Shown here in pieces: positions 4,184 through 13,726 of a stretch of DNA of 64,000 bases. The position numbers were made by a program, and so were the translations under genes. Source of the DNA: Cerasicoccus arenae (GTDB lineage: Bacteria > Verrucomicrobiota > Verrucomicrobiia > Opitutales > Cerasicoccaceae); the NCBI RefSeq assembly GCF_014651635.1, contig NZ_BMXG01000011.1, forward strand, positions 1 through 64,000. Reading direction: 5' to 3'. The notes beneath the pieces are model-generated. The model had not been told where the DNA came from. It saw only the letters and a program-made list of their open reading frames with translations, and did not search any database. Within the stretch, counting starts at the first letter, position 1. Each line of letters begins with the position of its first letter.

Positions 4184-4238
4184 ATTGAGGTAACTTTTAG
4201 GCTTCAACCGGTGCGCGGTATTGGACAGCGTGGAAGGC

Positions 4239-5540
4239 ATGGCTTTATCAACCGAGTATTTAACCTCTGCCGAATTGTTTGAACGCGCGCTTGAGCTGAT
4301 TCCAGGCGGCGTTAATTCCCCCGTTCGGGCGTTTCGCTCGGTGGGTGGAGCGCCATTTTTTACGCGGTCGGCGCAGGCCAGTCGGTTAACGACGGCTGAT
4401 GGCCAGGAGTTGATTGACTACGTTTGCACGTGGGGGCCAGCCATCCACGGGCATAATCGACTGGAAGTGCGTGAGGCGATTGCGCAGGCGTTGAATCGCG
4501 GGACGAGCTTTGGGACGCCCAACCCCTATGAGGTCGCGATGGCCGAGCGCGTAGTCGAGCTGGTTCCGTCGGTGGAGAAAGTCCGGATGGTCAACAGCGG
4601 GACTGAGGCGACGATGTCTGCAATCCGCCTTGCACGCGGTTACACGAAGCGGAATAAAATTATCAAGTTCGCTGGCTGCTATCATGGGCATGTGGATTCG
4701 CTTCTCGTGGCGGCGGGGTCGGGGGCCTTGACATTGGGCACGCCGGATAGCGCTGGCGTTCCACCAAGTTTTGCGGCGGAAACCATTGTATTGCCCTACA
4801 ACGATGTGGCGGCGCTGGAAGCCGCGTTTGCGGAGCACCCGGATGAAATTGCAGCCATCATTGTAGAGCCTTATCCGGCCAACTGTGGCCTGATCCTGCC
4901 TCTGCCCGGTTATTTGCAGAAGCTCCGTGATGTCTGCACTCAACACGGGACAGTGCTCATTTTTGATGAAGTCATGACTGGCTTCCGTGTGGCCTTGGGC
5001 GGCGTGCAAGAGCGGGAGGGTGTGACGCCAGATTTGACTGCGCTGGGCAAGATCATCGGGGGGGGGCTGCCGGTCGGTGCCTTCGGCGGTAAGGCCGAGA
5101 TCATGGACTTGCTCGCTCCGCTAGGGCCGGTTTATCAAGCAGGCACGCTGAGTGGTAATCCGCTGGCAATGGCGGCTGGTGTTGCCGCGCTCGATCTGCT
5201 GATTACTGAGGATCCTTATACGCGCCTTGAGGCCGCTGGTGCACAGATTCGCGATGCGTTGGAGGGGGTTGCCAAGGAACTTGGTTTGCCTCTGCAAGTG
5301 CCTCAGGTTGGATCAATGTTTGCACTGTTTTTCACCGAGGCACCCGTTACGCAATTTGAAAGCGCGCTGACCAGTGATAAATCGATGTTCAACACGGTGT
5401 TCCATTATGCGTTGGAAAATGGCGTTTACCTGCCTCCTTCGGCCTATGAAACATGCTTCATTAGCACGGCGCACACGAATAGCGACATTGAGCAAACCAT
5501 TGAGGTGCTATGTCATGGAATGAAGGAAATTACGCGATAG
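4239..5540 (+). CDS. hemL: Glutamate-1-semialdehyde 2,1-aminomutase
   Basis: HemL is a PLP enzyme that isomerises glutamate-1-semialdehyde to 5-aminolevulinate in the C5 tetrapyrrole pathway. Hallmarks are [12 protein letters not shown] at the N-terminus, [18 protein letters not shown] (phosphate binding), the [11 protein letters not shown] segment, [11 protein letters not shown], and the PLP-lysine motif [18 protein letters not shown]. The ATG at 4239 was chosen; a TTG six codons upstream is in frame but gives a less family-like start. The product is 433 residues. The use of hemL implies the organism makes ALA from glutamyl-tRNA; hemA is not in the window. A nine-G run (5058-5066) encodes part of the glycine-rich active-site loop. 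Confidence 0.96.
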
Positions 5541-5671: not shown

Positions 5672-7333
5672 GTGTCTTACCTCTACTTTGAGTTGGTGAA
5701 ATCGACTGCCGACTTGTCGACTGCTTTCAACACGGATGGTTTTCATGCCCATTGGCACAACGGTGGCTGGAGCATTTTCCATGGCTGGATGCATATTGTT
5801 TTGGACGCTGTGATCTGGATGTCCTACATCGCAATCCCGCTTACGATTTTCTGGTATCTACGGCATCGCCCGCACGTCGCAAATCGAGGCGTGTTTTACT
5901 TGTTTATAGTATTCATCCTGATGTGTGGTTTGACGTATTTGATGGAAGCCGTGGTCTACTGGTGGCCAGCCTACCGCTTATTGGGCCTGCTGAAAGCACT
6001 GACCGCGATTGTCTCGGTGGCTACCGTTATCAGTTTATTATCATTATTACCCCAGCTATTAAGGGCACCGACAGCCAAGACGTTGGAGGCGGAAATCACC
6101 AAGCGTGAGCTAGCGGAGAAACGCTTGATCGAAAGTGAAGATCAGTTTCGTACAGCCATGACTTATGCGCCAATCGGAAAGGCCTTAGTGTCAGTAGAGG
6201 GGAAATGGATGCAGGTGAACAAGAAAATCTGTGAATTACTGGGCTACACCGAGGAAGAACTCCTGAAAATGGATTTTCAACAGATTACCCATCCAGATGA
6301 CCTAGACTCCGACCTGCAGCTCTTAAAACAAACACTTGTGGGAGAAATTGATGAATATTCCATTGAAAAGCGTTATTTTCGGAAGGATGGCAACATCGTC
6401 TTCGTCCAGCTGAGTGTTTCGCTGATTCGTAAGGAGAATAAGCCCAAGTTTTTCATTTCTCAGATCGTAGACATCAGCGCCCAGAAAAAGCTTCAGCAGC
6501 GGCAGGAGAAATTAATCAGTGAGTTGGAGCAGAAAACAAAAGACCTACAACAGATCGTCTATGTGGCTTCACACGATTTACGTTCGCCACTGGTCAATAT
6601 CATTGGCTTTAGTGGCGAACTCGATTTCTCGATTAAAGAATTGATTGCTGTGCTGGACGAATTTGACGAATTGCCTCCGAAAGTAGAACATATCCTGAAG
6701 AAAGATTTGCCGGAAATTCTGCACTTCATCTCGACGAGTGGCCGGCGAATGGATCGACTGCTAAAGGGCCTGCTACAGTATTCCCGGCTGGGGCGCTATC
6801 CGATGGTCACCCTAGAAATTGACATGGACAAGCTCTTCGGAGACCTGCTTCAGGACTTATCCTATCAACTCGATCAAATCGGGGCTGAGGTAGAGGTTGA
6901 TTCGTTGCCTAAATGTTATGGCGATATAACGATGGTGAGCCAGATCTTCCGCAACCTCATTGACAACGCGATTAAATATCGTTCGACGGATCGGACTCTT
7001 CGTCTGAAAATTCATGCGGAAAAGCTAAAGAATCGTATTCGCTACACGTTGGTGGATAACGGCATGGGGATTGCGGAAAGCCACCAGAAGAAAATATTTG
7101 AGGTTTTCCATCGCCTGAACCCTAAAGATTCAGATGGCGATGGTCTTGGCCTGAGTATTTGCAGTCTTTTAGCTCAGCGTATGGAAGGAAACATCTCGCT
7201 CGAGTCCACTGTAGATAGCGGCTCTAGCTTTCATGTCGAGTTATCCATCGATGATATCTCACTCCACGAGCGGGCGAATGCACTGTCTTCAGCCAGCCTT
7301 AATCAACCATATTTCACACATCAATCGTTATGA
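5672..7333 (+). CDS. Ethylene-receptor-like membrane histidine kinase with PAS domain
   Basis: The 553-residue product is a membrane sensor kinase starting at a GTG. Residues 38-131 hold three membrane segments that align without gaps to the start of the plant/cyanobacterial ethylene-receptor domain. Asp45, Tyr52, Pro56 and Cys85 sit at the spacings of ETR1 Asp25, Tyr32, Pro36 and Cys65, and the third helix LLKALTAIVSVAT also matches. The copper ligand His69 of ETR1 (motif CGATH) is replaced by Tyr89 (CGLTY), so copper and ethylene binding are doubtful. A PAS domain follows (about 155-270), then a HisKA domain with phospho-acceptor His301 (ASHDLRSPL), an N box around Asn432, and G boxes DNGMGI and DGLGLSI. 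It overlaps the next receiver gene by four bases. Confidence 0.9.
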   Translation: MSYLYFELVKSTADLSTAFNTDGFHAHWHNGGWSIFHGWMHIVLDAVIWMSYIAIPLTIFWYLRHRPHVANRGVFYLFIVFILMCGLTYLMEAVVYWWPAYRLLGLLKALTAIVSVATVISLLSLLPQLLRAPTAKTLEAEITKRELAEKRLIESEDQFRTAMTYAPIGKALVSVEGKWMQVNKKICELLGYTEEELLKMDFQQITHPDDLDSDLQLLKQTLVGEIDEYSIEKRYFRKDGNIVFVQLSVSLIRKENKPKFFISQIVDISAQKKLQQRQEKLISELEQKTKDLQQIVYVASHDLRSPLVNIIGFSGELDFSIKELIAVLDEFDELPPKVEHILKKDLPEILHFISTSGRRMDRLLKGLLQYSRLGRYPMVTLEIDMDKLFGDLLQDLSYQLDQIGAEVEVDSLPKCYGDITMVSQIFRNLIDNAIKYRSTDRTLRLKIHAEKLKNRIRYTLVDNGMGIAESHQKKIFEVFHRLNPKDSDGDGLGLSICSLLAQRMEGNISLESTVDSGSSFHVELSIDDISLHERANALSSASLNQPYFTHQSL

Positions 7334-7767
7334 ATAATCAGGAGGTTACCATCATTCTTGCCGACGACGATGTCGGGCACCGAAGCCTCATGCGCCTGAA
7401 CCTCAATCGTTGTAATATAGCCAACAACATTATGGAATTTGAGGATGGGCAGGAGCTTCTCGGTTTTTTCACGAAGTCTTGCAAGGAAAAGTCACTTACT
7501 GACAAAGCGTTTATGATTTTTCTGGATATCCGCATGCCTAAAATGAACGGGATTGAGGTGTTGCAGATTTTAAAAGCCGACAAATATCTCCGACGAATAC
7601 CCATTATCATGGTGACAACGACCGACGATCCGTCGGAAATTGCGCGTTGTCATGAGTTGGGTTGTAGTTATTATGTAACCAAACCAGTGGACTACGAAAA
7701 ATTTATTGGCGCTGTTCGTAATCTTGGATTATTCCTTTCAATAGTCCAAGTGCCTCGACTTGATTAA
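7330..7767 (+). CDS. Stand-alone receiver-domain response regulator (Rcp1-like)
   Basis: This 145-residue protein is a single CheY-like receiver with no output domain. Asp12/Asp13 form the acidic pocket, Asp66 (FLDIRMP) is the likely phospho-acceptor, and Lys118 (YYVTKPVD) is the conserved lysine. The insertion before the phosphorylation strand and the overall sequence resemble the Rcp1 class of small regulators that partner phytochrome-type and other complex kinases. Its start codon overlaps the stop of the upstream kinase gene (ATGA), which argues that the kinase is its donor. It probably relays phosphate to a further protein, such as the hybrid kinase encoded two bases downstream. Confidence 0.93.
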   Translation: MNNQEVTIILADDDVGHRSLMRLNLNRCNIANNIMEFEDGQELLGFFTKSCKEKSLTDKAFMIFLDIRMPKMNGIEVLQILKADKYLRRIPIIMVTTTDDPSEIARCHELGCSYYVTKPVDYEKFIGAVRNLGLFLSIVQVPRLD

Positions 7768-7769
7768 TC

Positions 7770-9755
7770 ATGAATAATACGCAGCACAGAGAGTATCGAA
7801 TACTGCTTATCGAAGACGACTTTGGGTTGCAGCATTTCATCATGCGTCGCATGAGAGCGGATGGCTATCAGGTTATGGCGGTTTCCAGTGGTGCGGAAGC
7901 GATTAAGGAGCTGAGCGATACCCAGCAAGAATACGATCTCGTATTGCTGGATTATAAGCTTCCGGACACCAATGCCGAAGAACTCGTGACTGAGCATTGG
8001 GCCAGCCTTGGCTCACCGCCGTTTATCATGCTGACTGGTTTTGGTGACGAGCGCGTGGCCGTCCAACTGATGAAACTTGGTGCGGAGGATTATATCATCA
8101 AGGAGGCCGATTTTATCGATTACCTCCGGCCCGCGGTCGAACGTACGTTGCGGCATATTAGTCAGCGGGACCAACTTGATGAGGCCCAGCGCCAGCTTAA
8201 GGAAAGCGAAGAGCGCCTGAACCTTGCGCTGCACACGGCGGGCATTGCTGTATGGGATATCAATTTGCCGGAGCAGCATGCATACGTGTGCGAACGGTGG
8301 CGCGAAATAAGTGGTCAGTCACTGCCCAGGGGACCGATTTCGTTGGGGTTATTACATGCGGTTATCCACTCGGAGGATCGTGATTACTTCCAGCGGCGTT
8401 GGAGTAATTTTATACGGCAAACGGACTCGAAGCGGCACTTCGAGGCAGCCTTTCGCATCGTGCATGCAGAGTCTGGCGATCGATGGATTGAAAACCAAGG
8501 TATTGTAGTGCTGCGCGAGCCAGACGGCCGACCACGCCGCATCATTTGCACTTTCAATGACGTAACCGCAAAAATGCGTGTCCGCGAGATGGAAGATCAG
8601 TTGCGGCGGGCTCAGCGTATGGATACTTTGGGTTCCTTGGCTGGAGGGATTGCCCACGACTTTAATAACGTGCTGGCGGCGATTATTGGCTACAATGAAC
8701 TCACGCAACGCGACCCTGAGAATGTTGAATTCGTGTTGAGCAACGCCGATCACATTAGCCGGGCATCGCAACGTGCGCGCGAAATTATCCGCCAGGTTTT
8801 GCTTTTTAGCCGCTTAACGAATCCTGAGATCACCAAGGTGGACTTGGTGGAAGTCGTCAATGAGTCAGTAGATTTTATCCGCGCGGTTGTCGCAGAGCAT
8901 ACGCTCATTGAAACGTATTACGAGCTGGATAAAGCGGTCATTGATGCGGATTCGGGGCAAATCAGCCAAGTCATTACCAATTTGCTCAACAACGCCGCAC
9001 ATGCAGTGAAGGATGTGAGGGGAGTGATCCAAGTGCGCATTCGCGAAACGGTTTCGGATCAGCGAAATGGCTATGACGAGGACAGATACGGCTTTTTTTG
9101 CGTGGAGGTTCAGGACAATGGCAGTGGGATTCCCTTAAATATTCAGGAGCGGATATTTGAGCCATTTTTCAGCACGAAAAGGAAGGGCGAAGGCACAGGG
9201 CTCGGCTTGGCTACATCGCAGGGGATTATTGGCTCACATGGCGGCCGAATGACGGTTACCAGCGAGGTTGGGCACGGCGCGTGCTTCTCAGTGATACTGC
9301 CTAAAGCGCGACATAGCACAGTGGTCAAAGAAAAGAAAAAAACGACGCCCGTAACGCCAAGCGCACTACGTATCCTCTTGGTCGACGACGAGATCGCGTT
9401 GACGGAGGTTACGACGCAATTGTTGATATTACATGGCTTTGAAGTGGATGCCTATCATGACCCGGTTCAGGCTCTGGAATACTGTAAAAGCACGTGCGAG
9501 GAATACGATCTAGCCATTTGCGACTATAACATGCCGCACCTCAATGGCGATAAGCTGATCTCCATTTTACACGAAATGCACCCGCAGCTCCCATGTGTCT
9601 TGGTGACGGGGAACATGGATCAGCAGCAGGCGAAGCTAACAGATATCGCACCGTTCACGAAGCTGCTGCGTAAGCCTTATTCTCATGAAGAACTGATGGA
9701 GGTCATTAGTGAGGCTACGCTCACTGATTTCGTTTCGCAGGAGTTCGCAGAATAA
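7770..9755 (+). CDS. Hybrid sensor kinase: receiver-PAS-HisKA-HATPase-receiver
   Basis: The 661-residue cytoplasmic protein starts with a receiver domain (Asp61 in LLDYKLP, Lys111). It continues through a PAS fold (about 145-265), a HisKA domain with His296 (GGIAHDFNNVLAAI, the HDFNN class) and an HATPase domain (NNAAHAV, DNGSGIP, GEGTGLGLAT). It ends in a second receiver (VDDEIALTE, CDYNMPHLNG, a KPYS lysine motif). No membrane segment is seen. Flanking receivers imply phosphorelay input and output. It is third in the operon with the ethylene-receptor-like kinase and single receiver, so a multi-step relay among the three is likely. No DNA-binding output domain is encoded in this operon. Confidence 0.94.
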   Translation: MNNTQHREYRILLIEDDFGLQHFIMRRMRADGYQVMAVSSGAEAIKELSDTQQEYDLVLLDYKLPDTNAEELVTEHWASLGSPPFIMLTGFGDERVAVQLMKLGAEDYIIKEADFIDYLRPAVERTLRHISQRDQLDEAQRQLKESEERLNLALHTAGIAVWDINLPEQHAYVCERWREISGQSLPRGPISLGLLHAVIHSEDRDYFQRRWSNFIRQTDSKRHFEAAFRIVHAESGDRWIENQGIVVLREPDGRPRRIICTFNDVTAKMRVREMEDQLRRAQRMDTLGSLAGGIAHDFNNVLAAIIGYNELTQRDPENVEFVLSNADHISRASQRAREIIRQVLLFSRLTNPEITKVDLVEVVNESVDFIRAVVAEHTLIETYYELDKAVIDADSGQISQVITNLLNNAAHAVKDVRGVIQVRIRETVSDQRNGYDEDRYGFFCVEVQDNGSGIPLNIQERIFEPFFSTKRKGEGTGLGLATSQGIIGSHGGRMTVTSEVGHGACFSVILPKARHSTVVKEKKKTTPVTPSALRILLVDDEIALTEVTTQLLILHGFEVDAYHDPVQALEYCKSTCEEYDLAICDYNMPHLNGDKLISILHEMHPQLPCVLVTGNMDQQQAKLTDIAPFTKLLRKPYSHEELMEVISEATLTDFVSQEFAE

Positions 9756-9911
9756 CAAGCTTTGCTGTTGTCTCAGCGCCGGCAGTCTTGCCGAATACAC
9801 GCTTAGTTCGATAACTGGCTATCAGTATATTAATTCTAGGGAGGATTGCCAGGAACCGATTCCGGATTTTGTTGCCTAATTGAAATACGCTATGATGATT
9901 GTTGCTGGCTT

Positions 9912-11822
9912 GTGAAAATTTACTGGATACTCGTTGTTGCCGCTCCTGTCGCCCTCGCAGGGGGCTGGTTGATGCGTGGCTCACTTACCCCCCCCACACA
10001 CATGTCGTCGGATTTCAGTCTGACGACCTATTCAGATTCCACTTCGGCGCGCGCCGGCGAGGATTTTGTGGAAGGAACGGACGCTGCGGTTGAAGAGGCT
10101 GCTATTGATGGTCGGGTTCGTCTTCCCCGGAGCTTCGATGAGCGTTTGGCGGTGGTCGATTCAATCGGCGCGGATCCCTCCATGGACAATGTGACCATGG
10201 CCCTGCAAGTAATCATGGCGATGCGCGCAGGAGATTTACGTGCCGCGATGGAGCAGGCGGATAGTAGCTATGCCCGACGATTACTGATGGAGCGTTGGGT
10301 GGAGATCGACCCTGATGGCGTCTTGGCCTACTTGAGCGCCGACGAAAAAAAGAATTATAGTCTGACCCGAGAACTCTTTACTCAATGGGCGGAGACCGAC
10401 ATCGACGGAGCCCTCAAAGCCGTGCAAAGGCTTCCTGAGTCAAAGCAGAGCAGCGCCTATTACCGACTGATCAACTATTTGGGTAAGGAAGATCCCGTTC
10501 GAGCCATGAAGCTGATCAAATCCGGCAAGGTGGGAGGTAATATTGCTTGGCGATATAATGCGCTCATGAAAAATTGGGTGCGGGATGATCCCACTGCTGC
10601 TCGAGCGGCGATTGAGTCTATTTCAGACCGAGGTGAACGGGAGACAGCGTGGCGTGGCTATTTCTCTGGTTTGGCTGAAGATGATCCCAACCTCGCTCTG
10701 AACGAGGCCCAGCAATTGGGTACCTACCACGACCGCAAGCGGATGCTGGAGAGCGTTTACTCTACCTGGTTGAGGAAGGACATGGATATGGCCTTTGCCT
10801 CGCTGGAGCAGATACCGTCTGCGACCATGCGCAGTCAGATTATCGGTGCGCAGAGTTGGAGACTCCCTTTGGACGATCCCGAGTCGCTAATGGGCTATAT
10901 TGATGAATACACAGATGGCCGTCGGCAGGACGATCTCGTGCGAAATATTGTCAACCGACTAGCGAAAAGTGATCCCGTGCGGGCTGCTGCTCTGGTCGAT
11001 CAATTACCCTTCGGTTCCAATTATCGCAATTCTGTCAACAACCTCGTTCGCACCTGGGCGGAAAATGATCCGTTGGCAGCCATGGCGTGGGTGGATACCC
11101 TCCCCCCCGGTAGCGAGAAAACCAATGGTCAGGCCCGAGCGCTTGAGTATTATGCCGAGAATCATCCCGAGGAAGCACTACGTTTCTATTTATCCTTAGG
11201 TTCAGAGGAGCGCACCAATAGACATATGAGCGAACTGAGTGATGGGTTGGCCAAATATAATCCGGACTTTGCTGCGCAGCTTATCGCAGGAGTGAACCAG
11301 GAGGACATCCGCCAGAAGATGGAGGAGGAGTTGACCAAAGATTGGAGCAGGACAGATCCTGAGGGTGCGCTTGCCTATTGGACGGCCCTCGGGGGAGAGC
11401 TGTCCAAGAGCACCACCTCGGATATTGCCTATAACTGGGCTAGGAAAAACCCCGCCCAAGCCGCTGATTGGGCGCAAACATTGGAAGGCGATGCACAGTC
11501 AGATGCGATTGGTCGTATCAGCGAGCAGTGGTTGCGCCATGATAGCTTGGAGGCTTCAGAATGGATTGCGACTCTGGAGGTGAGCCCAGGGCGGGATGCG
11601 GCCATCAGCAATATCGTCAACCAGACATTGCGCAACGATCCCGCCAGTGCCTTTGACTGGGCGACAGGCGTCTCCGACGATAGCATACGCCAGAACCTCA
11701 CCAAGAACAGCTATAATAAATGGAAGGCGAAGGACCCAGCCGCAGCCGAGGCTGCGTTGCGCAAAAGTGATCTACCAGTTGAGGAGATCAATAAGCTCAT
11801 TGGGGAAGGCGATAAGAAATGA
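9912..11822 (+). CDS. Exported alpha-helical repeat protein, paralogue 1
   Basis: The predicted 636-residue protein has an N-terminal membrane segment (IYWILVVAAPVALAGGWLM) followed by a long series of about 32-residue repeats. Each repeat has the pattern DP-x-AA-hydrophobic, a LP turn, then a helix ending in W-A/V (for example WVRDDPTAARAAIESIS and TWAENDPLAAMAWVDTLPPG). The repeats look like paired helices of the TPR/SEL1/HEAT type; I cannot name the family. The GTG at 9912 was chosen over a TTG 66 bases upstream because it puts the hydrophobic segment at the N-terminus, as in the downstream paralogue of almost equal length. It overlaps that gene by four bases, so the two are coupled. It may be a periplasmic scaffold anchored in the inner membrane. 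An eight-C run lies at 9988-9995. Confidence 0.8.
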   Translation: MKIYWILVVAAPVALAGGWLMRGSLTPPTHMSSDFSLTTYSDSTSARAGEDFVEGTDAAVEEAAIDGRVRLPRSFDERLAVVDSIGADPSMDNVTMALQVIMAMRAGDLRAAMEQADSSYARRLLMERWVEIDPDGVLAYLSADEKKNYSLTRELFTQWAETDIDGALKAVQRLPESKQSSAYYRLINYLGKEDPVRAMKLIKSGKVGGNIAWRYNALMKNWVRDDPTAARAAIESISDRGERETAWRGYFSGLAEDDPNLALNEAQQLGTYHDRKRMLESVYSTWLRKDMDMAFASLEQIPSATMRSQIIGAQSWRLPLDDPESLMGYIDEYTDGRRQDDLVRNIVNRLAKSDPVRAAALVDQLPFGSNYRNSVNNLVRTWAENDPLAAMAWVDTLPPGSEKTNGQARALEYYAENHPEEALRFYLSLGSEERTNRHMSELSDGLAKYNPDFAAQLIAGVNQEDIRQKMEEELTKDWSRTDPEGALAYWTALGGELSKSTTSDIAYNWARKNPAQAADWAQTLEGDAQSDAIGRISEQWLRHDSLEASEWIATLEVSPGRDAAISNIVNQTLRNDPASAFDWATGVSDDSIRQNLTKNSYNKWKAKDPAAAEAALRKSDLPVEEINKLIGEGDKK

Positions 11823-13726
11823 AGTACGCCTTCAGCATTATCCTCCTCGCCATTGCTTTTGCCTTGGGTTGGTTTCTGAACGCACCCAATGCACGCCCGC
11901 AGTTTGATGAGGATCTCGACCCCATTCAGTTGGTTGACGCCTCCCCTGAGTGGCAGGCCAAAACCAAGGGAAAGTCGACCCGCGAAGTCGCGGAAGCCAT
12001 TTACCATGAAGCAATGTCGGTCAGCTTTGAGGAGAAATACCAACTGCTAGGCGGTATTCTGAAAAAGGACAGTACTGCCAGTAAGCTGAATGCCCGCATG
12101 ATCGTGATGTCCATGTCTGAGGATGAGCTCGTGCGCGCCATTGGGCAAGCTCGGGCAGAAGATGCTGATCGCAGCACGATGAACTTACTCTACGGGCGTT
12201 GGGTCGACGTCAACCGTGACGCGGCCTATGCGTATTTCCTCGAGCAGCCTGACCCTGACGATGTCTCCACCCTTGGTTATTTCATATTCAAGAACTGGGT
12301 GCTGGAAGACCAAGCTGGGGCGATGATCGCTTGGGCACAGCTTGACACCAATACCCAAAGTAAGCGCCTACGCACCATGGTCTATTCCTTGGCCGAAGTT
12401 GATCTCGCCCAGGCCCTTACTCTCCAGCTTACTTACGGTAAGGCGGATGGAAATGGCCCGAAAAACTACGCCCATATCATTGATCTATGGGCCAAGCAGG
12501 ACATTGAGTCCGCCAAAGAAGCGCTCGAACTGGTCCCTCGCGGTGATGCCTATGAACAGGCTCTCAAGGCCTATTTTAATGTTTTGATGGACGAAAACCG
12601 CGATTTGGCAATGACGGAGGCCAGAGAGTTGGCCAGCAACGCCGATCAGAAAAGCGTCCTGCGAAGCATCTACGAGCGCTGGATCAACGATGACGTTGAG
12701 GGCGCTTTGGGGGCACTGGCTCTGGAAAAAGATCCTCAGCAATACATGAGTGCATGGCGTGCTGCCGATAAAGATCCGGTGTTAGTGATGGACTGGGCCC
12801 ATGCCAATTTAGACGGCGCAGTGCAGGACGAATTTATCTCCACTGCCATCAACCGTATGGTGCGCAAAGACCCGCAAATGGCCCTCAGCTACATCGATAG
12901 TCTGCCCTACGGAGAGGCCTATACTCGCGCTCTGTCTAATCTATCCTACAACTGGGCGCGACAGGACCCAGAAGCTGCAATTGCGTGGTTTGAGGCGATG
13001 CCTGAAGGAGAGGATAGAAACAACGCCATGCGTAATGTCCTCTCCGAATACGTTAATAAGGACCCCGAAGCGGCCAAAGCCTACTTTTTGAGTATGGACG
13101 GGGAGATGCAGGGAAGCGCGGTTTCGAATTTAGCTAATAGGCTAGTTCAGAATGACCCACAACAGGCCCTCGCCTGGATCAATTCACTCCCGGACCCCGA
13201 CCTGCAGTCGCGTCTGATCAAGGAGACCTACAGCAGTTGGGCGCGGGAAGACGGTTCGACGCTTTTTGCGCACCTTGGAGCCGATGGTTTTGCTAAGCTA
13301 GACACGAACGAACAGCGAAACCTCATGCGTAGCTGGGCCGACTACAGTCCCCGGGAGGCCGCTGATTGGCTGGAAAACGCCCCTGAAGATCAGCAAAAAA
13401 TGCTGACCGATCGGGTGTCACGCGAATGGTTGGACCACGATACCTATGAGGCCTCTATTTGGATTTCTGAGCTGCCTGAGGGGGAGAGCCGTGAGGCTGC
13501 CGTTAAGAATCTCGTGAACTCCATTAGCAGTAGTGATCCTATCTCTGCGCTCGATTGGGTCGTAGATATTAAGGATGATGGAGATCGCAACCGCAGCGCG
13601 GCAAATATTTTGAGGCAATGGAAAGACAAAGCTGCCGCCAGAGATGCTTTGCTTGCCAGTAGTTTGTCCGATGACGAAGTCACGAAGTTGCTCGCGGATG
13701 TCTTTAATGAAAAGTCGGGGAGCTAA
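11819..13726 (+). CDS. Exported alpha-helical repeat protein, paralogue 2
   Basis: The 635-residue protein begins with a hydrophobic signal anchor (residues 3-20) and continues with the same 32-residue DP...LP...W repeats as the gene before it. Clear units are KDPQMALSYIDSLPYGEAY, RQDPEAAIAWFEAMPEGED, NKDPEAAKAYFLSM and QNDPQQALAWINSLPDPD, each followed by a helix. Conservation of length, anchor and repeat order shows a tandem duplication, while sequence divergence suggests it is old. The start overlaps the stop of paralogue 1 (ATGA). Function is unknown; superhelical repeats of this kind usually bind other proteins. A G8 run and a GGGGG-N8-CCCCC hairpin (13738-13755) follow the stop and may end the transcript, although no T tract follows. 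Confidence 0.82.
   Translation: MKYAFSIILLAIAFALGWFLNAPNARPQFDEDLDPIQLVDASPEWQAKTKGKSTREVAEAIYHEAMSVSFEEKYQLLGGILKKDSTASKLNARMIVMSMSEDELVRAIGQARAEDADRSTMNLLYGRWVDVNRDAAYAYFLEQPDPDDVSTLGYFIFKNWVLEDQAGAMIAWAQLDTNTQSKRLRTMVYSLAEVDLAQALTLQLTYGKADGNGPKNYAHIIDLWAKQDIESAKEALELVPRGDAYEQALKAYFNVLMDENRDLAMTEARELASNADQKSVLRSIYERWINDDVEGALGALALEKDPQQYMSAWRAADKDPVLVMDWAHANLDGAVQDEFISTAINRMVRKDPQMALSYIDSLPYGEAYTRALSNLSYNWARQDPEAAIAWFEAMPEGEDRNNAMRNVLSEYVNKDPEAAKAYFLSMDGEMQGSAVSNLANRLVQNDPQQALAWINSLPDPDLQSRLIKETYSSWAREDGSTLFAHLGADGFAKLDTNEQRNLMRSWADYSPREAADWLENAPEDQQKMLTDRVSREWLDHDTYEASIWISELPEGESREAAVKNLVNSISSSDPISALDWVVDIKDDGDRNRSAANILRQWKDKAAARDALLASSLSDDEVTKLLADVFNEKSGS

Follow-up and report, generated by a model that had tools for sequence, protein, structure and literature searches.

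An ethylene-receptor-like kinase in a conserved signaling operon

We analyzed a stretch of 64,000 nucleotides from the genome of Cerasicoccus arenae, a marine bacterium of the Verrucomicrobiota (contig NZ_BMXG01000011.1, positions 1 to 64,000), which we call the window. An open reading frame at 5672..7333 (+) begins with a GTG start codon and encodes a sensor histidine kinase of 553 aa, with the architecture ETR1_N-PAS-HisKA-HATPase_c. A sequence-only reading of this gene had likened its product to ethylene receptors, and a profile search bears out the likeness: the ETR1_N family (PF25487) matches at 105.6 bits (E=1.7e-30; cut-off 27 bits), and PAS, HisKA and HATPase_c are further Pfam matches. 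In a search of the genome, the ETR1_N domain scored 110 bits and spanned residues 37-131 (5780..6064, +). AlphaFold2 predicts three transmembrane helices for this membrane domain, at residues 35-65, 72-94 and 101-131, with pLDDT values of ~90-98. The profile score and the three predicted helices assign the protein to the ETR1_N family. A profile search of PDB sequences did not turn up a solved ETR1 membrane domain, and Foldseek returned no PDB match for the membrane domain at E<=0.001.

The kinase boxes are all present: SHDLR, with the phospho-acceptor H301, NLIDNA (N), DNGMG (G1) and GDGLGL (G2). Overlapping the kinase stop codon is a gene for a stand-alone receiver-domain response regulator of 145 aa (7330..7767, +; Pfam Response_reg). 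The HisKA histidine, the N, G1 and G2 boxes and the linked regulator together identify a two-component sensor kinase. The third gene of the operon encodes a hybrid kinase of 661 aa with Pfam architecture REC-PAS-HisKA-HATPase-REC (7770..9755, +). Upstream lies a hemL-like gene (4221..5540, +), named by sequence similarity as a putative glutamate-1-semialdehyde aminotransferase.

This arrangement is conserved. All 4/4 Cerasicoccus genomes share one gene order (hemL, ETR-like kinase, response regulator, hybrid kinase), and the hemL-like gene, syntenic upstream in each of them, is ~80-82% identical across the genus. In a genome from another genus of the same family (G009), the three signaling genes occur together without hemL. 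Orthologues of the response regulator and the hybrid kinase are present in 5/5 operons, and these two genes and the kinase motifs are retained in every operon compared, including those whose ethylene-binding sites are damaged. Downstream of the operon, the window also encodes two consecutive large proteins of 658 and 635 aa (9846-11822 and 11819-13726) with repeated DP-x-A-x-x-W-like units. Neither has a Pfam match, and their relatives adjoin the hemL/kinase operon in the other Cerasicoccus genomes.

The copper/ethylene site lacks one ligand

Alanine scanning has defined seven residues required for ethylene binding, including His69 of ETR1 (PMC11819568, PMC6682694), and modeling suggests that D25 positions H69 for copper coordination (PMC11819568). 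Aligned to Arabidopsis ETR1, the window kinase keeps six of the seven, with D25, Y32, I35, P36, I62 and C65 corresponding to Asp45, Tyr52, Ile55, Pro56, Ile82 and Cys85. The alignment between D25 and C65 is free of gaps, as the sequence-only reading had described, and the distance is 40 residues in both proteins. The copper ligand Cys65 is thus kept as Cys85 (5924..5926, +), and the equivalent of K91 is kept as Lys108. The exception is His69: the ligand motif reads CGLTY in place of CGATH, and both the alignment and the TAT codon at 5936..5938 (+) confirm the proposed tyrosine, Tyr89, at this position. None of the alignments places a histidine at Cys85+4 through a gap. Elsewhere in the domain, His41 is a conserved residue, and there are rare substitutions, among them S24L and a Phe-to-Tyr change close to the site.

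To place this change we surveyed 169 distinct bacterial ETR1_N proteins, not counting Arabidopsis ETR1. They were drawn from Pfam searches of genomes from the window's family, class and phylum, from Bacteroidota, from plasmids and from a genome-contig scan based on a four-sequence alignment, whose patterns leave out positions 65-69. The sample is non-random and leans toward Verrucomicrobiota, Planctomycetota and Bacteroidota, with cyanobacteria and proteobacteria thinly covered. Within it, 163 proteins have His69 and only the window protein has tyrosine, which excludes a chance match. The five other proteins without the histidine each retain at most three of the seven binding residues. All seven are found in 138/169, and the window protein alone has the other six without His69, so it falls short of the seven-residue pattern predicted for a functional bacterial ethylene receptor.

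Other proteins in the survey have also departed from the canonical site. L062:903-2954(-) and L063:912-2963(+) have phenylalanine at His69 (CGLLF/CGLIF), carry Y32F, I35M and P36A and are without the N-terminal cysteine described below; judged by these sequences, their lineage is a separate loss of the site. Three very divergent ETR1_N-like sensors (L066, L067 and L068) have almost no ethylene residues left, which suggests that further lineages also retain the fold without a copper site.

A cysteine before the first helix accompanies the copper ligands

The survey revealed a second difference, which the sequence-only reading had missed. Each of the 138 intact-site proteins has a cysteine ahead of the first transmembrane helix, in the motif RWxCGxW or PHGxCYxW. 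It lies 15 residues before Asp25 in 133 of them and 16-18 residues before it in the five others, which carry small insertions. The window protein has Asn30 (AAC; 5759..5761, +) here, and so it departs from the putative intact-site pattern at this position as well.

Across the whole sample, the cysteine is present in 155/159 proteins that keep both C65 and H69 and in 0/10 that are missing either one. The ten ligand-lacking proteins represent about six lineages on the domain tree, so the association does not reflect one event. The Fisher value of 3e-12 ignores shared ancestry, and the pattern was noticed post hoc. In cyanobacterial receptors, the single cysteine in this region has been suggested to substitute for the dimer disulfide formed by Cys4/Cys6 of ETR1 (PMC6682694). 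The distribution suggests that the N-terminal cysteine goes together with the copper ligands, and it may serve in dimerization or in copper delivery.

A second receptor-like protein is also damaged

Also missed was the only other ETR1_N protein in this genome, L002 (G000:C5:99054-99341), a hybrid kinase of 540 aa with a C-terminal receiver. It carries D25N and K91L, which are common to its paralogues in the genus. In ETR1, the D25N mutant is still functional and binds ethylene, with ~100-fold lower affinity (PMC13012798). Additionally, L002 has changes of its own, namely P36S, a His21-to-Ser substitution and loss of the N-terminal cysteine; the paralogues in the genus (L013 and L014) retain both P36 and the cysteine. 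Thus, neither of the two receptor-like proteins in the window genome has the canonical pattern, compared to one each in C. frondis (G001) and in G002.

Site losses among orthologues in Cerasicoccaceae

The sequence-only reading had asked whether the tyrosine is a clade-wide feature. We rejected this, because the orthologues in congeners have histidine. The syntenic orthologues in C. frondis (L006) and G002 (L007), which are ~58-62% identical to the window kinase over their full length, have all seven binding residues and the cysteine. Two other orthologues in the family have different lesions: Y32F, I35V, P36A and C65S in another Cerasicoccus species (G003), and D25N, Y32F and P36G in G009.

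We built a tree from the cytosolic region, the response regulator, the hybrid kinase and hemL. In this tree C. frondis, with its intact receptor, pairs with the damaged G003 with a support of 99. The window branches outside the G001-G003 group. Given this grouping and the intact outgroups, the best reading is that the window, G003 and G009 lost their site residues independently.

Rates of change in the membrane domain differ between the intact and damaged proteins. Between the intact orthologues of C. frondis and G002, the membrane domain is 71% identical, compared to 59-66% for PAS, HisKA and HATPase. The G003 membrane domain is only 32-36% identical to those of the three other Cerasicoccus proteins, compared to ~49-68% in the cytosolic domains. 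The window protein, whose membrane domain is 62% identical to that of C. frondis, is less extreme. The ratio of membrane to cytosolic terminal branch lengths is 0.16 for G001, 1.13 for G002, 2.17 for the window, 3.41 for G003 and 3.59 for G009. For the window branch, a simulation under proportional rates gave P=0.04 for acceleration, but relative-rate counts that used distant outgroups were not significant, and we downgraded the claim of a clear acceleration because the two tests conflict. Orthologues with ~60% amino-acid identity are too divergent for dN/dS. Overall, decay seems early or mild in the window protein and clear in G003 and G009.

Explanations for the altered site

With His69 lost, the canonical Cu(I)/ethylene site is predicted to be absent. 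We consider it probable that the window protein is the relic of a receptor, blind to copper and ethylene, and that its cytosolic kinase module continues to signal. Without the histidine ligand and the cysteine, the domain would neither hold Cu(I) in the canonical way nor bind ethylene, and it may remain as an anchor and dimerization element. Output of the phosphorelay to the CheY-like regulator would then be set by the PAS domain or by a fixed basal kinase activity, with the PAS-kinase module, the regulator and the hybrid kinase either responding to a PAS signal or working at a basal level. Mutant receptors bear on this point. The AzoEtr1 substitutions D35A and C75A, equivalent to D25 and C65 and predicted to prevent binding, leave the receptor non-functional, as do comparable mutations in SynEtr1; plant receptors, by contrast, stay on (PMC11819568). 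Since bacterial copper-site mutants are dead and not constitutive, retention of the operon needs another input or a basal role. The best reading of the comparisons within Cerasicoccaceae is that the membrane sensor decays repeatedly, and repeated decay of ethylene sensing fits the pattern better than one adaptive His-to-Tyr switch. Against a relic stand the domain score of 110 bits, the six binding residues kept along with the Lys91 equivalent, and the weak support for acceleration on the window branch.

The kept residues also favor the main rival, in which the sensor was re-purposed and Tyr89, Cys85, Asp45 and Lys108 form a new pocket to regulate the same kinase, one that is copper-free or suited to a different metal or small ligand. 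The confidently predicted fold, the domain identity to the intact C. frondis protein and the rare substitutions near the site are also in its favor. However, the tyrosine occurs in one species, with no conserved tyrosine clade to indicate selection, orthologues decay through other lesions, and the N-terminal cysteine is gone too. We regard re-purposing as unlikely. A bolder version, in which the Cys85-x3-Tyr89 pocket is a working non-ethylene sensor and the remodeling of the operon reflects Cerasicoccaceae receptors re-tuned to new signals with the relay kept, strikes us as more doubtful still. The sequence-only reading had suggested a new ligand or a metal-free sensor. It was right that the receptor fold is conserved and a copper ligand is lost, but the further step has no advantage over plain loss, because the change is confined to a single species, the cysteine is gone, and orthologues in related species show other lesions and strongly accelerated membrane domains. 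For a new ligand, though possible, we found no support.

It is improbable that the protein is still an ethylene receptor, binding weakly through Cu(I) held by Cys85 and another donor such as His41, Asp45 or Tyr89. Phenolate is a poor ligand for Cu(I), the cysteine has been lost as well, and no other protein among the 169 combines a missing histidine with an otherwise intact site. Cys85, Asp45 and the conserved His41 would allow such binding, and the reduced but measurable affinity of ETR1 D25N is a precedent. His69 of ETR1 has been described as only 'putatively' copper-interacting (PMC6586836), yet it is among the seven residues required in the alanine scans. Finally, a sequencing or assembly error is very improbable: although a single transition separates TAT from a true CAT (His) codon and the sequence comes from one assembly of the species, the correction would leave the window as the only intact-site protein (1/139) without the N-terminal cysteine, turning the Asn30 codon AAC into a cysteine codon would take at least two changes, and the paralogue L002 in the same genome is damaged too.

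Comparison with known receptors

Among known systems, a close parallel to the window system is AzoEtr1-AzoRRetr1 of Azospirillum brasilense (PMC11819568), which also combines a membrane ethylene-binding domain, a PAS domain and a histidine kinase with a small response regulator gene immediately after. AzoEtr1 (Azospirillum locus L193) has all seven residues and the N-terminal cysteine and binds ethylene, whereas in the window protein both His69 and the cysteine are missing, and its operon has the hybrid kinase as an additional third gene. SynEtr1 of Synechocystis (PMC6682694) is likewise a bacterial ETR1_N sensor kinase, but it contains a cyanobacteriochrome domain and binds ethylene. Arabidopsis ETR1 shares with the window protein the three-helix membrane domain, six of the seven binding residues and the histidine-kinase core; its His69 and Cys4/Cys6 have no counterpart here, and unlike the window protein it contains GAF and receiver domains within one protein. 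The Cerasicoccus orthologues L006 and L007 lie in the same operon beside hemL and differ in having the complete site and the cysteine.

The case offers a natural experiment on the fate of a bacterial ethylene receptor after loss of its copper site. The survey also suggests a link between the copper ligands and the N-terminal cysteine, for which a dimer disulfide is the one role proposed to date: among the 169 proteins, it occurs in every intact-site protein and never without both ligands. Receptors engineered to lack the copper site are non-functional in bacteria and signal constitutively in plants, and here at least three lineages have a damaged site and still retain the operon.
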